NCBI RefSeq assembly: GCF_009762795.1
Contig: NZ_CP046400.1
Location: 597,501 to 661,500 of the forward strand
Direction: 5' to 3'
Length of the DNA stretch: 64,000 nucleotides
From: Pseudodesulfovibrio cashew
Lineage (GTDB): Bacteria > Desulfobacterota > Desulfovibrionia > Desulfovibrionales > Desulfovibrionaceae
Below, piece by piece: positions 38,493 to 45,486 of this stretch. Position numbers and translations under genes: made by a program. Under the pieces are notes generated by a model. The model worked only from the letters and a program-made list of their open reading frames with translations, did not search any database and had not been told where the DNA came from. Positions within the stretch are counted from its first letter, which is position 1; the number at the start of each line of letters is the position of its first letter.

Positions 38493-38876
38493 TCACCGCA
38501 ATCCGATAATACCGCGTTGGCCCAGGGTTTTGAGGAAAGCGGTGACGCTGAGTTCGGCTTCTCGGGGCTGGACTTCGTATTCCTCGACAAGGGCTTGGGC
38601 GATGGCGCGGACGGATCGCCTGCCGTCGATGCGTTGCCAGACGAAGGAGCCCATTTCGTCGAGTTCGAGTTGCTTGATCATGGGTCGTCCGTCCCAGAGG
38701 CCGACCTTATCCGCGAGCCTGCCGAACCACGGTTTGACCGCGAGGGGGTAGGCGAGCCGAATCAGGCCGCCGTCCAGGGGCGTCTCCTCCACCTCGGTGT
38801 TGCGTACCGGCACCATGCCCAGGGCCTCGGCCCGGGAGACGGTGGGTTGTGGGGAACGTTTCTCAAACCAGGACAT
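38493..38876 (-). CDS. PqqD-family protein
   Basis: 127 aa. The C-terminal 80 residues fit the PqqD fold: MGSFVWQRIDGRRSVRAIAQALVEEYEVQPREAE and LGQRGIIGLR (fragments), with LDEMGSFVW corresponding to the usual vWxxlDG start. PqqD domains bind precursor peptides and hand them to radical-SAM maturases, but no such enzyme or precursor is visible nearby. The start overlaps the end of the 308-aa gene by 14 bases, so the two are translationally coupled. Confidence 0.75.
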   Translation of the reverse strand: MSWFEKRSPQPTVSRAEALGMVPVRNTEVEETPLDGGLIRLAYPLAVKPWFGRLADKVGLWDGRPMIKQLELDEMGSFVWQRIDGRRSVRAIAQALVEEYEVQPREAELSVTAFLKTLGQRGIIGLR

Positions 38877-39789
38877 AGGACTCGCACACGGTGTTGAAGG
38901 TTTCCTCGATCAGGGGAACGCTGCCGGAGGCGCGGACCGCGAGGATGGCGTTGCCCGCACCCGTGGTCCAGACGCGTCCCTGGCAGTGGACGCGGCGGCG
39001 CAGGGCGGCGCGGAGAAAGGAGTCCTTGGCGAATCCGGTCCAACGGACGGCTTCCCGACTTTCCTTGTGCCCGGCCTGCATGGGCAGGGATTCGGGCGGC
39101 GGGTCCTCCAGGGTATCGCGCACCCAGGTCTCAAGGGTCGTCCCTCTGAGCAGCACGCCTGCAGGCGCGAAGCGCTCGAAGACAAGAGAGGTTCCCGGTC
39201 CCTTTCCCATGGGCGCCCGGCCCGCGTTGCGGCCGGAACGGGGCCGCCAGTATTTCACGGCGTAGTGCCCGGGCCGAAAGGAGAAGGTGTTCAAAAGAAA
39301 GTCCGCGGGCACCCTCGCGGCCAGGCCGAACAGAGACCAGGGGACGGTCTTTCCGGCTGAGACGTCGCGGAAGGAGGCGAGGACCTCGGCGGCCAGGGCG
39401 TCTTCGCTCTCGGCACGAAGAAAAAACTGGATAAGCGCGGCCAAGCCCGTGCCCGGATTATGCAGGGCGGCCCCGATGCCCTGGTCGACCTCGGTGCGCC
39501 AGAGAAAGGAGTGGGCCGAGAGTCCGGAACCGGCCAGCCGGGCGAGGCTTTCGCGCCATGGTCCCGGCGTGTCGGCAGATTCCAGGGGGCGCATGTCCAC
39601 GCCCTTGTGTCCCTTTTGCAGCCGTTTGAGGTGCTTTTCAAAAGAAAAGGTTCCCTGCACGTTCCGCCACTTGAGCTCGCACCGGGGGCGTCCCTGTTCC
39701 TCCAGCAGAAAGCCGTCACGCTCCAGGGCCGAAACCTCCCAGTCGTCGGGCGCGGACAGCCCCACGCCGTTCCAGCGGTACTCGATCAT
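38863..39789 (-). CDS. Unknown 308-aa protein in PqqD operon
   Basis: 308 aa, no signal peptide or membrane helix, no recognised domain. Rich in Arg, Trp and Phe, starting MIEYRWNGVGLSAPDDWEVS, which suggests a small beta domain. RWRP-like basic stretches (YWRPRSGRNAGRAP) in the middle. Overlaps the PqqD-family gene by 14 bases and starts 1 base from the stop of the secreted-protein gene, so the three form one operon. GG-rich codon use is like neighbours; no sign of recent transfer. Confidence 0.7.
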   Translation of the reverse strand: MIEYRWNGVGLSAPDDWEVSALERDGFLLEEQGRPRCELKWRNVQGTFSFEKHLKRLQKGHKGVDMRPLESADTPGPWRESLARLAGSGLSAHSFLWRTEVDQGIGAALHNPGTGLAALIQFFLRAESEDALAAEVLASFRDVSAGKTVPWSLFGLAARVPADFLLNTFSFRPGHYAVKYWRPRSGRNAGRAPMGKGPGTSLVFERFAPAGVLLRGTTLETWVRDTLEDPPPESLPMQAGHKESREAVRWTGFAKDSFLRAALRRRVHCQGRVWTTGAGNAILAVRASGSVPLIEETFNTVCESYVLV

Positions 39790-39790
39790 C

Positions 39791-40396
39791 CTAGCGGGGC
39801 AGGAACTCGTCGAGGCTCTTGATCCGGGTCGGGCCGCCGTTGCGCGCCTCCCGACGGTTGAACTCCCTCATGAAGGCCTTGTATTCGCTGTCCACCAGGG
39901 AATCGAGGGTCATCTTGATGGACACCCCGGGCCGCATCTCGGATTCACGGCTCCACATGAGCAGCACGGACACCCGCTCCTTGCCCCTGGAAAAATTCCA
40001 TTTCCAGGCGATGACGTTACGGAAGGCATCGCCCTCGTAGCTGTCCGGCTTGCCAAAGGCGTTCTCATACCGCCTCAACAGCTGGTCGAAAAATTTTTGG
40101 CTGCGGTTATGAAACTTCAGCTTGATGCGCACCAGCTTTCCTTCTGCCTCGGCATTGGCGAAGGTCAGTGAACCGCCGCGAATACCGGGGATGGAGTCGG
40201 ATTTGAGGTGTACTTCGGTCAGGTACGGCGCATCCGGAATGGGGCTGGCCCTGTCCATGTCGCAATGCTGGGAAAAGTCGTCGAAGTCCTGTCCCAGCGT
40301 AAATCCGGCCAGGGTGGTGGGGAACGTCCCGCCGCCGTGAGCCAATGAGACGGAGAGCACCATCGTCACCAATATGAGAGAGCATGTCTTGATCAT
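39791..40396 (-). CDS. Secreted protein of unknown function, PqqD operon
   Basis: 201 aa with a clear signal peptide (MIKTCSLILVTMVLSVSLAHG). The mature part has GFTLGQDFDDFSQHC near its start, a pattern seen in small periplasmic proteins whose fold repeats 'F-x-LGx(3)' segments, and a basic C-terminus. No catalytic motif recognised. First gene of the three-gene operon; only one Cys (in QHCDMD) in the mature protein. Confidence 0.7.
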   Translation of the reverse strand: MIKTCSLILVTMVLSVSLAHGGGTFPTTLAGFTLGQDFDDFSQHCDMDRASPIPDAPYLTEVHLKSDSIPGIRGGSLTFANAEAEGKLVRIKLKFHNRSQKFFDQLLRRYENAFGKPDSYEGDAFRNVIAWKWNFSRGKERVSVLLMWSRESEMRPGVSIKMTLDSLVDSEYKAFMREFNRREARNGGPTRIKSLDEFLPR

Positions 40397-40494
40397 CGTG
40401 ATTCGTCACCTTCTTGAAAAGACTTGTCCACTTCGTCCGTGGTGTCTTATGATTAAACGAGAAATCAGCCGTTGGCAAAGGGGAGAGATAAAAA

Positions 40495-40623
40495 TTGAAG
40501 ACAATTCGGAGAAGAGGAGTGCCGCCGTGGCGAGTGCTGGCCTATGCGCTCGTGGCCGTTGTAGGCGGCGCAGTCTACGGCGGCCAGGTCTGACCGCTTC
40601 TGGTAAGCCTCCCGGTCTGGGAG
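40495..40623 (+). other. Likely 5' coding part of the phosphatase gene, interrupted by an in-frame TGA
   Basis: TTG at 40495 has a good GGGGAG ribosome site 9 bases upstream. From there the frame reads as a basic N-terminus and first membrane helix (KTIRRRGVPPWRVLAYALV...), then meets TGA at 40591-40593, and continues without another stop into the SpoIIE phosphatase. Both sides of the TGA look like coding sequence. A 5-bp stem CTCCC/GGGAG with loop GGTCT lies 15 bases after the TGA. See findings. Confidence 0.55.
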
Positions 40624-42069
40624 TTGGGCATAATTATTCTGATTCCGCTGGCCGCGGCACTTTCGTTGCGGTCGCCACTGGAGCGGCGATACGTGGACCG
40701 GGCCGCCCCCATCCGCCGGACCGCCCTCCAATTCCGTCTGGACCTGGGTCTCTATCTGGCCGCCGGACTGGTTATGGCGCTGATCCTGCTCCTGCGATAT
40801 CACTTCCCCCTTTTGCAGAGCGGCATGAAGCTGGTCCTCGGCGTGTTCACGGTGGGGCTGTTCGCGGCCCTGGACCTGGCCCTGGCCCGAGAGCGCGACG
40901 TCATTCACCTGGCCCACCATCACGGCCCCTTCTCTCCGCCAAAGGAACTGACGCCCCTTTCCAAACGCTTTATCCTGGTCACCGCAGTAATCCTGGGACT
41001 CATCACGGCCATCCTGCTGCTGGTGCTCATCCGCGACGTCAACTGGCTGGCCTCGCAGGGGCTTAACCAGGAATCCATCGGCACTCTGGGGCGGTCCGTG
41101 CTGCAGGAAATCCTGTTCATCATGGGATTTCTCCTGCTGATGACCATCAACCTCGTCTTTTCCTTCGCCCGTAACCTCAAGATTCTCTTCCACAGCGAGA
41201 CCCGAGTCCTGAAGGCGGTCAGCCGGGGAGACCTCTCCCGCCGTGTTCCGGTGGCCACCAGCGACGAGCTGGGAGTCATCGCCGGATACACCAACACCAT
41301 GATCGCGGCCCTGCACGAAGGAGTCCGCATGCGCGAAGGACTGCTCATCGCCCAGGAGGTACAACGCAACTTCCTGCCCGACGAATCCCCGGAACTGCCC
41401 GGACTGGACATCGCCGGCTCCGCCACCTTTTCCGACGAGACGGGCGGCGATTTCTACGACTTCGTCCACTGCGAACCCGACGGGTGCTCGCGCATCACGC
41501 TGCTGGTGGGCGATGTTTCAGGGCACGGCATCGGCGCGGCCCTGCTCATGGCCTCGGGCCGGGCCACCCTGCGCCAATCCGTGAACCAGGACGCCGGACT
41601 AGCCCGAAACATCGCCGCCGCCAACATCCATCTGTCACGGGACCTGGACGGCACCGGACGCTTCATCACCCTGTTCGCCCTTGGGCTGAATCCCCTTGAG
41701 CGCACGGTCTCCTGGGTCAACGCAGGGCATCAGCCCGCCCTTCTCTACGACCCCGCCAGCGACCTTTTCGCGCAGCTCAAAGGGGTGGATATTCCCCTGG
41801 GCGTAATGGAGGATTGGGACTACCATGAATTCTCCCTACCCTATCCGAAGCCGGGCCAGGTGCTGCTCATCCTCACCGACGGCGTGCCCGAGGCTCACAG
41901 CCCCGACGGCGAGATGTTCGGCCAGGAACGACTACTGGAAACGATTCGGGGAAACGCGGAGCGGGACGCCGAAGGCATCATCCGGGCCGTGTCGCAAGCG
42001 GTGGCCGGATTCACGCGAAACGCCGTCCTTGAAGACGACCTCACCCTGGTCGCCATCAAGGGAATCTGA
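40624..42069 (+). CDS. Membrane SpoIIE-type serine phosphatase with HAMP domain
   Basis: 481 aa from the TTG at 40624; the natural protein is probably longer (see the 40495 entry). At least four membrane helices in the first ~190 residues, a HAMP domain (about 190-240; VLKAVSRGDLSRRVPVATSDELGVI), then PP2C/SpoIIE domain with AQEVQRNFLPD, DETGGDFYDF, VGDVSGHGIGAALLM, VNAGHQPALL, LILTDGVPEAHS and LEDDLTLVAIK. All metal-binding Asp/Gly motifs are kept, so it should dephosphorylate an anti-sigma-factor-antagonist-type partner; none is nearby. The TTG at 40624 has no proper ribosome site. Confidence 0.85.
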   Translation: MGIIILIPLAAALSLRSPLERRYVDRAAPIRRTALQFRLDLGLYLAAGLVMALILLLRYHFPLLQSGMKLVLGVFTVGLFAALDLALARERDVIHLAHHHGPFSPPKELTPLSKRFILVTAVILGLITAILLLVLIRDVNWLASQGLNQESIGTLGRSVLQEILFIMGFLLLMTINLVFSFARNLKILFHSETRVLKAVSRGDLSRRVPVATSDELGVIAGYTNTMIAALHEGVRMREGLLIAQEVQRNFLPDESPELPGLDIAGSATFSDETGGDFYDFVHCEPDGCSRITLLVGDVSGHGIGAALLMASGRATLRQSVNQDAGLARNIAAANIHLSRDLDGTGRFITLFALGLNPLERTVSWVNAGHQPALLYDPASDLFAQLKGVDIPLGVMEDWDYHEFSLPYPKPGQVLLILTDGVPEAHSPDGEMFGQERLLETIRGNAERDAEGIIRAVSQAVAGFTRNAVLEDDLTLVAIKGI

Positions 42070-42092
42070 GAAGCGAAAAAGAATCGCAATAC

Positions 42093-42106
42093 TTGATGTA
42101 GATCAA
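42093..42106. promoter_or_regulatory. FNR-type binding site
   Basis: TTGATGTAGATCAA exactly fits TTGAT-N4-ATCAA. Its centre is 41.5 bases upstream of 42141, with TAGAAA (42129-42134) at the right place for a -10, the layout of a class II FNR-activated promoter. Confidence 0.6.
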
Positions 42107-42140
42107 CGACGGCCCGCGCGAATGGAGCTAGAAAGTATTC

Positions 42141-42248
42141 AAGACGTTCAAACAGCCATCAACAACGTCCGTCACACTCGCCGAGCCCTTCTATCGGCAT
42201 CCTGACCTCCTCTACCAGGACAAGCCCCGCAAGGGGCTCGTCTTGTTT
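42141..42248 (+). ncRNA. Candidate FNR-controlled small RNA
   Basis: About 107 bases from the predicted FNR-type start to the terminator T-run. No good ORF is driven by this promoter: the only small frame (28 codons from 42122) starts upstream of the predicted transcript start and has no ribosome site. Entirely predicted; the terminator may simply serve the phosphatase gene. Confidence 0.3.
42219..42248 (+). terminator. Intrinsic terminator
   Basis: GAC-a-AGCCCC-GCAA-GGGGCT-c-GTC hairpin followed by TTGTTT. About 150 bases after the phosphatase stop. Confidence 0.85.
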
Positions 42249-43090: not shown

Positions 43091-44140
43091 CTAGTAGTGG
43101 ATGTCGCCTTCCGCCATGGGCGTGGCGAACTTCTTGTAGACCCAGAACTGGTAGGCGATGACGATGGGCACGAAGACCAGGGCCACGCCGAGCATGATCT
43201 GCAGGGTCAGCTGGCTGGACGCGGAGTTCATGATCGTCAGCGAGTTTGCCGGGTTGGGGTTGGACGGGATGATGGCCGGGAAGATGCCGACCACGCCGAA
43301 CAGGGCCGTGCCCGCGATGTACACGCAGGAGGCCGCCCAGGACATCCAGTACTGACCGCTTCCCAGGTAGGTGCGCATGAGCACCAGGCCACCCACGGGC
43401 AGGGCCAGAATGACCAGAAGCACCGGGTAGAGGAAGTAGTTGCTGAACAGATTGGTGGCGAAGGCGGTGTAGGCCAGGAAGAGCACGGTCAGCACCACCA
43501 GCAGGGGCCAGGTCACGCGCGCCGTGGTCAGGGCCCTGGCGTGCAGGGCTCCGGTGGCGCGGATGGTCAGCCAGAGAGCACCGTGCATCAGGAAGATGAC
43601 CACGAACAGGACGCCGCCGGCCAGGCCGTAGGGATTCAGGAGGCCGAAGAGCCCGGCCTGGCTGAAGCCCGTCTCATCCAGGGGCAGCCCCTGGAAGATG
43701 TTGCCGAAGGCCACCCCAAGCAACAGGGCTGGCAGAAAGGAGCCCAGGAAGTGGGCCGTATCCCATATCTTTTTCCACGTCTCGCTCTCGACCTTGGAGC
43801 GGAACTCGAAGGACACCCCGCGCACGATGAGCGCGAAGAGCAGGAGCATGAGCGCGGTGTACAGCCCGGAGAACATCTGGGCGTACGCATAGGGGAAGGC
43901 GGCAAAGGTGACGCCGCCCGCCGAGATGAGCCACACTTCGTTGCCGTCCCAGAAGGGGCCGGTGGAGTTGAGCATGGCGCGTTTTTCGGATTCATCCTTG
44001 GCCAGGAAGGGCAACAGCGTGCCCACCCCGAGATCGAAACCGTCCAGGATGAAGTAGACGGCCCACAGGACGCCCCACAGGACGAACCAGATCATAGCCA
44101 GATAGTAGTGCCAGGTACCTATTTCCATGATGTCAACCAT
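43091..44140 (-). CDS. cydB: Cytochrome bd ubiquinol oxidase subunit II
   Basis: 349 aa, about 8-9 membrane helices. Conserved CydB N-terminus WFVLWGVLWAVYFILDGFDLGVGTLLP, MLNSTGPFWDGNEVWLISAGG and FVFR-type SFEFRSK are present; the Asp in DGFDLGVG is the key conserved residue near the heme region. Pairs with CydA directly upstream (33-base gap). AGGAG ribosome site before ATG 44140. Confidence 0.95.
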   Translation of the reverse strand: MVDIMEIGTWHYYLAMIWFVLWGVLWAVYFILDGFDLGVGTLLPFLAKDESEKRAMLNSTGPFWDGNEVWLISAGGVTFAAFPYAYAQMFSGLYTALMLLLFALIVRGVSFEFRSKVESETWKKIWDTAHFLGSFLPALLLGVAFGNIFQGLPLDETGFSQAGLFGLLNPYGLAGGVLFVVIFLMHGALWLTIRATGALHARALTTARVTWPLLVVLTVLFLAYTAFATNLFSNYFLYPVLLVILALPVGGLVLMRTYLGSGQYWMSWAASCVYIAGTALFGVVGIFPAIIPSNPNPANSLTIMNSASSQLTLQIMLGVALVFVPIVIAYQFWVYKKFATPMAEGDIHY

Positions 44141-44172
44141 CGTCAGATCTCCTTTTTTATCAGTATCTCAGG

Positions 44173-45486
44173 CTAGACCTGGATGGGGGTGTTGTCTTCG
44201 GGGCCCTTCTTGGCCAGCTTGATCATCAGCCAGATGCCGACGGCGCCGAGCAGTGCGTAGAGCGCGCACATGAACAGCAGGGTGAAGCTCACCTGACCGG
44301 TGGTGATCGGGGAGACGGCGTCGGAAGTGCGCATCAGCCCGTAGACGATCCACGGTTGGCGGCCCACCTCGGCGAGCACCCACCCCGCCTGCATGGCGAT
44401 ATAGGGGATCGGGATACAGAAAGGCAGCATTTTCAGATACCAGGGATACTTATCAAGCCGGTTGCGCATGACCCAGCCGAACAGGGCGATGAGCGGCATG
44501 ATTGTGCCCAGGCCGACCATGATGCGGAAGGCGGCAAAGGTGATGAGCACGGGAGGACGGTCTTCCTTGGGGAAGTCGTTCAAGCCCTTCACCTCGGCGT
44601 TGAAATCATTGTAGGCCAGGAAGCTCAAGGCGCCGGGAATGGGCAGGGCCTCGATCAGGTTGCCCTCGGAACCGGGCACGAGAAGCAGATACATGGGTGC
44701 GGACTTCTGGGTCTCCCAGTGGGACTCCATGGCCGCCAGCTTGGCGGGCTGCTTCAGGGACATGTTGTTGCCGTGGATGTGCCCTTCCGCCGCCACGAAG
44801 ACGGAGAAGATGACCGCCACGGAAACGGCCAGGTTGAAAGACTTCTGGAAGAAGGCGGTCTCGCTCTTGCGGATGAGGTGCCAGGCGGAAATGCCCATGA
44901 TCAGGAACGAGGCCACCAGGATGGCCGCAGGCACGACGTGGAAGAACTCGAGCCAGGCCCACTTGTTGGTGATGACCGCCACGAAGTCGGTCAGTTCGGC
45001 GCGGCCGTTGCGCAGCACGTAGCCGGTCGGGTCCTGCATGAACCCGTTGGCGATGAGAATCCAGATGGCCGACAGGTTGGAGGCTCCCGCCACCAGCCAG
45101 GCCACGATGGCGTGCGCCTTGGGAGAAAGTTTTTCCCAACCGAAGTGCCAGACGCCGATGAAGGTGGACTCCAGGAAAAAGGCCGCCGTGGCCTCGATGG
45201 CCAGCAGCGAACCGAAGATGTCGCCCACGAACATGGAATAGCGGGACCAGTTGGTGCCGAACTGGAATTCCAGGGTGATACCGGTCACCACGCCCAATGC
45301 GAAGTTGACCAGAAAGATCTTGCCCCAGAATTTGGCCATTTTCTGCCAAATCTCGTTGCCGGTGCGCGCGTACGCCGTCTCCATGCACGCGATGAGAATG
45401 GAGAGCCCGAGCGTCAACGGGACGAAAATGAAGTGAAACATGGTGGCTGCCGCGAATTGCAGCCGGGAAAGCATCAATACATCCAT
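44173..45486 (-). CDS. cydA: Cytochrome bd ubiquinol oxidase subunit I
   Basis: 437 aa, shorter than the E. coli protein (522), so of the short-Q-loop type. Heme ligands are visible at expected places: H18 (FHFIFVPLTLGLS), H183 (FFHVVPAAI) and M323 (RIMVGLG), and the proton-channel glutamates E98 and E106. GRQPWIVYGLMRT is the conserved Q-loop-side motif. The enzyme reduces O2 to water with quinol and gives oxygen tolerance in a sulfate reducer. Start has AAGGGGG upstream. Follows pfkA on the same strand. Confidence 0.96.
   Translation of the reverse strand: MDVLMLSRLQFAAATMFHFIFVPLTLGLSILIACMETAYARTGNEIWQKMAKFWGKIFLVNFALGVVTGITLEFQFGTNWSRYSMFVGDIFGSLLAIEATAAFFLESTFIGVWHFGWEKLSPKAHAIVAWLVAGASNLSAIWILIANGFMQDPTGYVLRNGRAELTDFVAVITNKWAWLEFFHVVPAAILVASFLIMGISAWHLIRKSETAFFQKSFNLAVSVAVIFSVFVAAEGHIHGNNMSLKQPAKLAAMESHWETQKSAPMYLLLVPGSEGNLIEALPIPGALSFLAYNDFNAEVKGLNDFPKEDRPPVLITFAAFRIMVGLGTIMPLIALFGWVMRNRLDKYPWYLKMLPFCIPIPYIAMQAGWVLAEVGRQPWIVYGLMRTSDAVSPITTGQVSFTLLFMCALYALLGAVGIWLMIKLAKKGPEDNTPIQV

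Follow-up and report, generated by a model that had tools for sequence, protein, structure and literature searches.

A predicted selenocysteine in the MASE10 sensor domain of a SpoIIE-type membrane phosphatase from Pseudodesulfovibrio cashew and its relatives

The window analysed here is a stretch of 64,000 nucleotides from the Pseudodesulfovibrio cashew genome. It contains a gene for a MASE10-HAMP-SpoIIE membrane phosphatase whose reading frame includes an in-frame TGA. There is strong comparative evidence that this UGA, at 40591, is read as selenocysteine, which would involve SelB, tRNA-Sec and the hairpin downstream of it. Taken as a whole, the best explanation, and a highly probable one, is that this is an intact selenoprotein gene encoding a HAMP receptor, in which the selenocysteine, Sec33, is most likely the sensing residue. 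The arrangement is common to many sulfate-reducing bacteria and their relatives and is absent from the tables of selenoprotein families in PMC13188914 and PMC9312934. The features of the locus are listed in Table 1.

Table 1. Features of the selenoprotein gene and its divergent neighbours, in window coordinates.
Feature	Position	Strand	Basis
PqqD-like protein, divergent neighbour	38493..38876	-	PF05402, E 8.5e-16
308-aa protein, divergent neighbour	38863..39789	-	no Pfam match
201-aa protein, divergent neighbour, signal-peptide-like start (by eye)	39791..40396	-	no Pfam family at E 0.1
GGGGAG ribosome site and TTG start	40480..40497	+	sequence; start candidates compared with relatives
Predicted selenoprotein gene, MASE10-HAMP-SpoIIE (PP2C) membrane phosphatase	40495..42069	+	one-TGA frame, Pfam, orthologues
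First membrane helix, residues 11-32, YGGQV motif at its end	40525..40590	+	AlphaFold2 helix; alignment
MASE10 membrane sensor domain (PF20970)	40552..41118	+	Pfam 121.1 bits, cut-off 27
TGA predicted to encode Sec33	40591..40593	+	TGA or Cys codon in same column in homologues; Ser in three divergent ones
SECIS-like hairpin CTCCC-GGTCT-GGGAG	40609..40623	+	sequence; conserved form; weak by itself
HAMP signal-relay domain	41203..41319	+	Pfam 25.1 bits, cut-off 25 (just at cut-off)
SpoIIE / PP2C-type phosphatase domain	41491..42060	+	Pfam 144.5 bits, cut-off 25; structure match 6k4e

The reading frame and the residue encoded at the TGA

A preliminary description of this DNA had the frame opening at a TTG with a good ribosome site, and a GGGGAG (40480-40485) does sit 9 bases 5' of the TTG (40495-40497). 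From there, 32 codons lead to the TGA and the same frame then runs on to a stop ending at 42069, for a product of 524 residues with the TGA read as Sec33. That the frame beyond the TGA encodes a SpoIIE phosphatase, as had also been proposed, agrees with the Pfam match of 144.5 bits. An in-frame GTG at 40519, likewise 5' of the TGA, is an alternative start. In most relatives the candidate start is an ATG, 21 to 34 codons 5' of the site. In comparison with 25 Sec-type orthologues, the differences at codon positions 1, 2 and 3 number 158, 96 and 264 over the 20 codons 5' of the TGA, and 1670, 1181 and 2214 over the 150 codons 3' of it. Conserved coding sequence is therefore present on both sides of the in-frame TGA, as is the case in selenoprotein genes.

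At least 96 distinct homologous loci, including that of the window, have a TGA in the same alignment column (80 plus 16). In a set of 60 genomes, including that of P. cashew, the matches listed include 36 SpoIIE-type loci that reach the site; the weak end of the matches is not part of this set, and its counts are those among the matches listed. One in-frame TGA is present in 27 of these loci, in a single alignment column, and the 9 loci without a TGA have Cys there. The 36 genomes of the genus account for 24 of the TGA loci and 8 of the Cys loci among the matches listed, and four of them (G006, G018, G031 and G033) have no SpoIIE-type locus reaching the site among those matches. Six more distant paralogues among the matches listed also reach the site, with Cys in L042 to L046 and Ser in L047; of the distant paralogues scanned, L043, L044 and L046 are cyclase-type. 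Two copies of the P. cashew locus itself (L001 and L051) were dropped before the counts were made.

A scan of named contigs gave 73 relatives, 11 of which, judged by length, are on the same contigs as loci of the 60-genome set. There are 57 with a TGA at the site, 15 with a Cys codon and one, L143, that ends there and was dropped before the counts because it is truncated. Searching with the MASE10 Pfam model found the domain in 10 of 395 genomes of the phylum, where 5 of the 11 matches have one TGA, and in 49 of 199 genomes of the family, where 28 of the 55 matches do. New and distinct loci make up 16 of these 28, and in all 16 the TGA is in the same column. Four family loci without a TGA, fetched alongside, have Cys (3) or Ser (1). 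Alignment of the homologues, which the preliminary description had put forward as a check, thus placed either Sec or Cys there in all but three divergent homologues, which have Ser (L047, L056 and L195); the site residue is therefore not absolutely required.

The site usually lies in a YGGxV[U/C]P motif, located where the first membrane helix is predicted to end on the periplasmic side. Residues Y28, Cys/Sec33 and P34 are invariant in the alignments of 34, 70 and 73 rows (Sec entered as C), an invariance that is partly by construction because the rows of alignments A1, A5 and A6 were picked by the site motif. Outside the motif-picked alignments there are exceptions, with Phe28 in L031 and neither Cys nor Sec in L047, L056 and L195.

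Record titles of the Sec forms include Desulfobacterales, Desulfobulbaceae, Desulfocapsaceae, a Syntrophobacterales MAG and Olavius symbiont Delta 1 (L112). Cys forms are also found in MAGs named Rhodospirillales, Lambdaproteobacteria and Myxococcota. Viral contigs gave 12 pattern matches, with no relative among them. Some genomes have two copies, these being a Sec and a Cys form in G039 (among the matches listed) and a Sec and a Ser form in G482. In a quick tree of 110 rows, made from the 250 residues after the site, the distribution of Sec labels requires at least 10 changes, of which the starred branches force 6; as the tree is unrooted, gain and loss of Sec are not told apart by it. Three related MASE10 proteins with the family code f54, L055, L056 and L057 (from G162, G290 and G427), have Sec, Ser and Cys, respectively, and are a natural series for testing the site residue. 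In G005 a Sec-type orthologue is found in two frames, L040 and L080, split around residue 220 through assembly error or decay.

Among the readings of the TGA offered in the preliminary description, selenocysteine is by far the best, given the Cys and Sec residues of the homologues and the presence of the sel genes. A further reading is that the UGA acts as a regulated stop, with the full receptor made when selenium is present and a 32-residue peptide when it is not, so that the gene also reports selenium supply. Such an effect would follow from any Sec codon 5' of an effector domain, which is the position of the codon in the Sec forms examined. Repeated interchange of Sec and Cys would abolish control of this kind, however, and there is no evidence of termination being used as a signal. 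This reading is therefore considered improbable. The chemistry of the residue seems to be the thing kept, since Sec and Cys interchange repeatedly.

The suggestion that the TGA is a true stop, with translation restarting at TTG 40624 to make a shorter phosphatase without the first helix, is very improbable. A frame of 481 amino acids does open at this TTG, but comparison with the 25 orthologues shows coding-type evolution over the 20 codons 5' of the TGA, the motif is conserved across the site and the Cys forms are single uninterrupted proteins that read through it. A recent nonsense mutation or a sequencing error in this strain, in favour of which there is nothing beyond the TGA itself, has next to no probability and is refuted because the same TGA is found in 26 other loci among the matches listed, as well as in the 57 of the 73 named loci, from many assemblies.

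The hairpin after the TGA and the selenocysteine machinery

The SECIS-like hairpin is made up of CTCCC (40609-40613), GGTCT (40614-40618) and GGGAG (40619-40623). It begins 15 bases after the TGA and its loop is at 20 bases, both as first described. The rules for bacterial SECIS elements in Fig 2A of PMC13188914 are a loop of 3-9 nt, a stem of 4-16 bp, a G in the first two loop positions and a distance of 16-37 nt from the UGA to the loop. The hairpin of the window (L006) fits this geometry, with a loop of 5 nt (GGUCU) that has G first, a stem of 5 bp and a distance of 20 nt. The free-energy threshold used was -7.5 kcal/mol or lower. At -6.9 kcal/mol, the bare 5 bp stem of the window is the fifth weakest among the 80 Sec loci scored, and against 200 synonymous recodings the hairpin gives a p of 0.129. 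The 60-nt stretch has a z of -0.08 against shuffles, its minimum-energy fold being another structure. The 30-nt local fold is at -8.9 kcal/mol, yet the 60-nt fold favours this different structure. The window's own hairpin, taken alone, is not significant. Its significance comes from the recurrence of the TGA, the Cys alternatives and the hairpin across many genomes.

For the scoring of hairpins, 14 of 120 genes were removed because their first 300 bases were identical to those of others. L031, L047, L056 and L058 are outside this scoring and all four are inside the 110-row tree. A stem at or below -7.5 kcal/mol is present in 67 of the 80 Sec loci against 8 of the 26 Cys loci, and at p<=0.05 the hairpin outscores synonymous recodings in 45 of the Sec loci and 2 of the Cys loci. 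A Mann-Whitney comparison of z between Sec and Cys loci gives 1.4e-9, from related sequences that are not independent. Of the 13 Sec loci above the -7.5 threshold, eight are so by 0.2 or less. Two Sec loci, L118 and the cyclase-type L055, have no convincing hairpin by the criterion applied.

The 80 Sec loci divide into 52 sequences of a Desulfobacterales type (alignment A3), 27 of the type of the genus and its order (alignment A4) and L055, which is in neither alignment. The A4 hairpin is GCUCCC-GGUCU-GGGAGC and the A3 hairpin is GCCCCC-CGUGNNNNU-GGGGGC plus variants. Among the 52 A3 sequences, 47 of them distinct, 94.2% of cells are paired and both sides have changed in 3 of 7 pairs. The A3 covariation score of 0.290 is reached by none of 500 shuffles and compares with 0.028 to 0.118 in slid controls. 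Weaker measures are matched more often, the number of pairs with both sides changed by 17 of 500 shuffles and the further pair types by 42 of 500; the shuffles ignore relatedness among the sequences. In A4 the score is reached by 40 of 500 shuffles, which is uninformative because the sequence of the genus type is almost invariant. Compensatory change thus appears to keep the hairpin in the Desulfobacterales type, while the window's own type hardly varies. The Cys form L014 has kept the stem and has GGCCU as its loop, as might be expected after a recent change from Sec to Cys. An Rfam search over 40300-42200 gave three matches far below their gathering scores, none of them a SECIS.

The selA, selB and selC genes had been named as something to look for, and the genome contains SelA (608.5 bits), SelB and tRNA-Sec (80.8 bits, gathering 47), as well as SelD. 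The SelD gene has its own TGA, followed by a hairpin that shares the GCUCC/GGAGC base, and two formate dehydrogenases also have a TGA. SelB is above the cut-off in 58 of the 60 genomes. The two without are G008, which has the Cys form, and G029, which has the TGA form, each 82% complete.

Receptor structure and the proposed role of Sec33

The N-terminal domain belongs to MASE10 (PF20970), at 121.1 bits against a cut-off of 27. An AlphaFold2 model made with 70 sequences has a pLDDT of 93.8 and helices at residues 11-32, 41-67, 72-102, 106-143, 155-187 and 192-243, followed by HAMP and PP2C, with the Sec just after helix 11-32. By the positive-inside rule, a basic N-terminus lies inside the cell. 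With the basic N-terminus taken as inside, Sec33 is predicted to be at the periplasmic end of helix 1. The closest structure to the phosphatase domain is the SiaA PP2C domain 6k4e (Z 27.1, rmsd 2.8, 242 aligned), the next nearest being RsbU-type and then SpoIIE. A model of MASE10 alone has a pLDDT of 90.6 and no clear match in the PDB comparison, in which the best hit is a designed helical protein (Z 8.0, rmsd 6.5) and the other rows are mainly pores, designed bundles and GPCRs. Rows with a Z of 8 or less are generic, and the absence of a clear match is not evidence of a new fold. Among the scanned homologues, the domains attached to MASE10 are SpoIIE, adenylate/guanylate cyclase or HD. The cyclase-type L055 also carries a TGA, its hairpin being doubtful.

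The product would thus be a HAMP receptor in which a MASE10 domain of six membrane helices is linked through the HAMP relay to a cytoplasmic PP2C phosphatase, and the presence of HAMP suggests that it works as a dimer. Sec33 is most likely a chemically reactive sensing residue, because of its position at the end of a helix, the Pro next to it and the Cys that nearly all relatives lacking Sec have in its place. At the outer membrane face it may react with an oxidant, a metal or an electrophile. There is no Cys in the first 233 residues of the window protein besides the Sec site, and 17 of 73 rows likewise show no other Cys in the sensor part. The MASE10 domain of the window would therefore have no thiol partner within the sensor of one subunit, and the likely chemistry would then be a Se-Se bond between two subunits, or the taking up of a metal, oxidant or electrophile by Sec. 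This chemistry could alter HAMP and in turn reset the phosphatase. The substrate of the phosphatase may be a phosphorylated STAS protein of a partner switch, an output proposed because of the likeness to SiaA, RsbU and SpoIIE and the STAS genes near some relatives.

Alternatively, Sec33 might be structural, or might hold a metal or heme as a static ligand, and not be a switch. Cys-Pro dipeptides are able to act as ligands of heme or soft metals, and the lack of a Cys partner in the window domain would also agree with this alternative. His17, a possible second ligand, is present in just 43 of 73 rows and is Tyr in the window, so that no fixed second ligand was found there at position 17. Three Ser forms also exist, and a static role for Sec33 is regarded as rather unlikely. 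Sensing by Sec33 remains the preferred reading. In the branch with Cys87 or Cys117 (42 of 73 rows, 41 of them Sec forms, in alignment A6), these residues may be partners of Sec. Positions 87 and 117 are within membrane helices, and in A6 the Cys is present in 33 and 36 of the 73 rows, respectively, nearly always together with Sec.

A broader proposal, which is on balance slightly favoured, is that MASE10 is a family of transmembrane receptors in which the sensing atom is selenium. A Sec at the outer face, with Cys in nearly all other members, would report redox state, soft metals or electrophiles to PP2C and, in homologues, to adenylate cyclase or HD outputs. If so, a family of selenoproteins dedicated to receiving signals would be spread through the sulfate reducers. 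The natural series of Sec, Cys and Ser forms makes the mechanism directly testable.

Known systems and gene neighbourhood

The C-terminal domain is of the same family and fold as the SiaA, RsbU and SpoIIE partner-switching phosphatases, but the window protein differs from these systems in its sensor, a MASE10 domain with Sec. With the frame from TTG 40624 as the query, the SiaA equivalog model NF038263 gives 38.1 bits against a cut-off of 700, and no matching NCBIfam model reached its cut-off. In the largely open-access literature searched, MASE10 was met in a single paper, as locus tags, with PF20970 absent and no mention of Sec. No report of a MASE10 signal was found in it, and no description of a selenoprotein with SpoIIE or MASE10 was recognised among the papers listed.

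The May 2026 catalogue has 119 prokaryotic selenoprotein families or subfamilies (PMC13188914 Table 1). Neither this table nor the list of 2022 (PMC9312934 Table 1) has a MASE10, SpoIIE, cyclase, HD-GYP or membrane sensor entry, and the nearest entries by name in these two sources are the putative regulatory protein FmdB and a TonB-dependent receptor. The catalogued families and the window gene have in common an in-frame TGA, Cys homologues and a downstream hairpin. The bacterial selenoproteins in these tables are mostly enzymes, redox carriers, and transport or binding proteins. In the window protein the Sec belongs to a signalling receptor's input domain and has been exchanged with Cys in evolution, which points to the sensing atom. 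Three of the nine new families of deep-Sep are hypothetical proteins without domains (PMC12013277), and by the family names alone none of the nine is of this kind. The available part of PMC1914089 contains nothing similar.

The nearest precedent comes from GOS metagenome reads, in which a PP2C-type phosphatase is fused to a peroxiredoxin that is a selenoprotein (PMC2398784). As in the window protein, a selenoprotein is joined to a PP2C phosphatase, and no claim is therefore made for the first selenoprotein with such a partner. In that fusion, as presented in the portion of PMC2398784 available, the partner is the peroxiredoxin and apparently contains the Sec, whereas here the Sec is in the membrane sensor domain of a protein found widely in genomes. 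Gene finders that stop at TGA would probably truncate this receptor in many anaerobes.

The divergent trio of genes for the 201-aa, 308-aa and PqqD-like proteins is beside the gene in all 14 loci of the genus compared by tblastn, including that of the window. PqqD-like matches are also found in the loci of three Desulfobacterota relatives (L093, L109 and L126). The cytochrome bd genes (43091-45486) were dropped as a functional link, a cydB match being present in just one of the 14 genus loci, that of the window itself.

STAS genes are present in the loci of 12 of the 73 relatives (flanks up to 5 kb). In L078, L082 and L146 the STAS gene adjoins the MASE10 gene and is convergent with it, and in eight other loci it is about 3.5 to 4.3 kb off. 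The P. cashew genome has six STAS matches, none of them within the window, and the best, at G000:C1:884359-884646, is no more than about 500 bases from another SpoIIE gene. The neighbour counts for STAS and cyclic-nucleotide genes are from clustering on crude ORF calls, the STAS count having been checked by blastp. Close to the MASE10 gene, 15 of the 73 loci (L098 and 14 others) have a gene with a cyclic-nucleotide-binding domain, one member of the cluster having been scanned.
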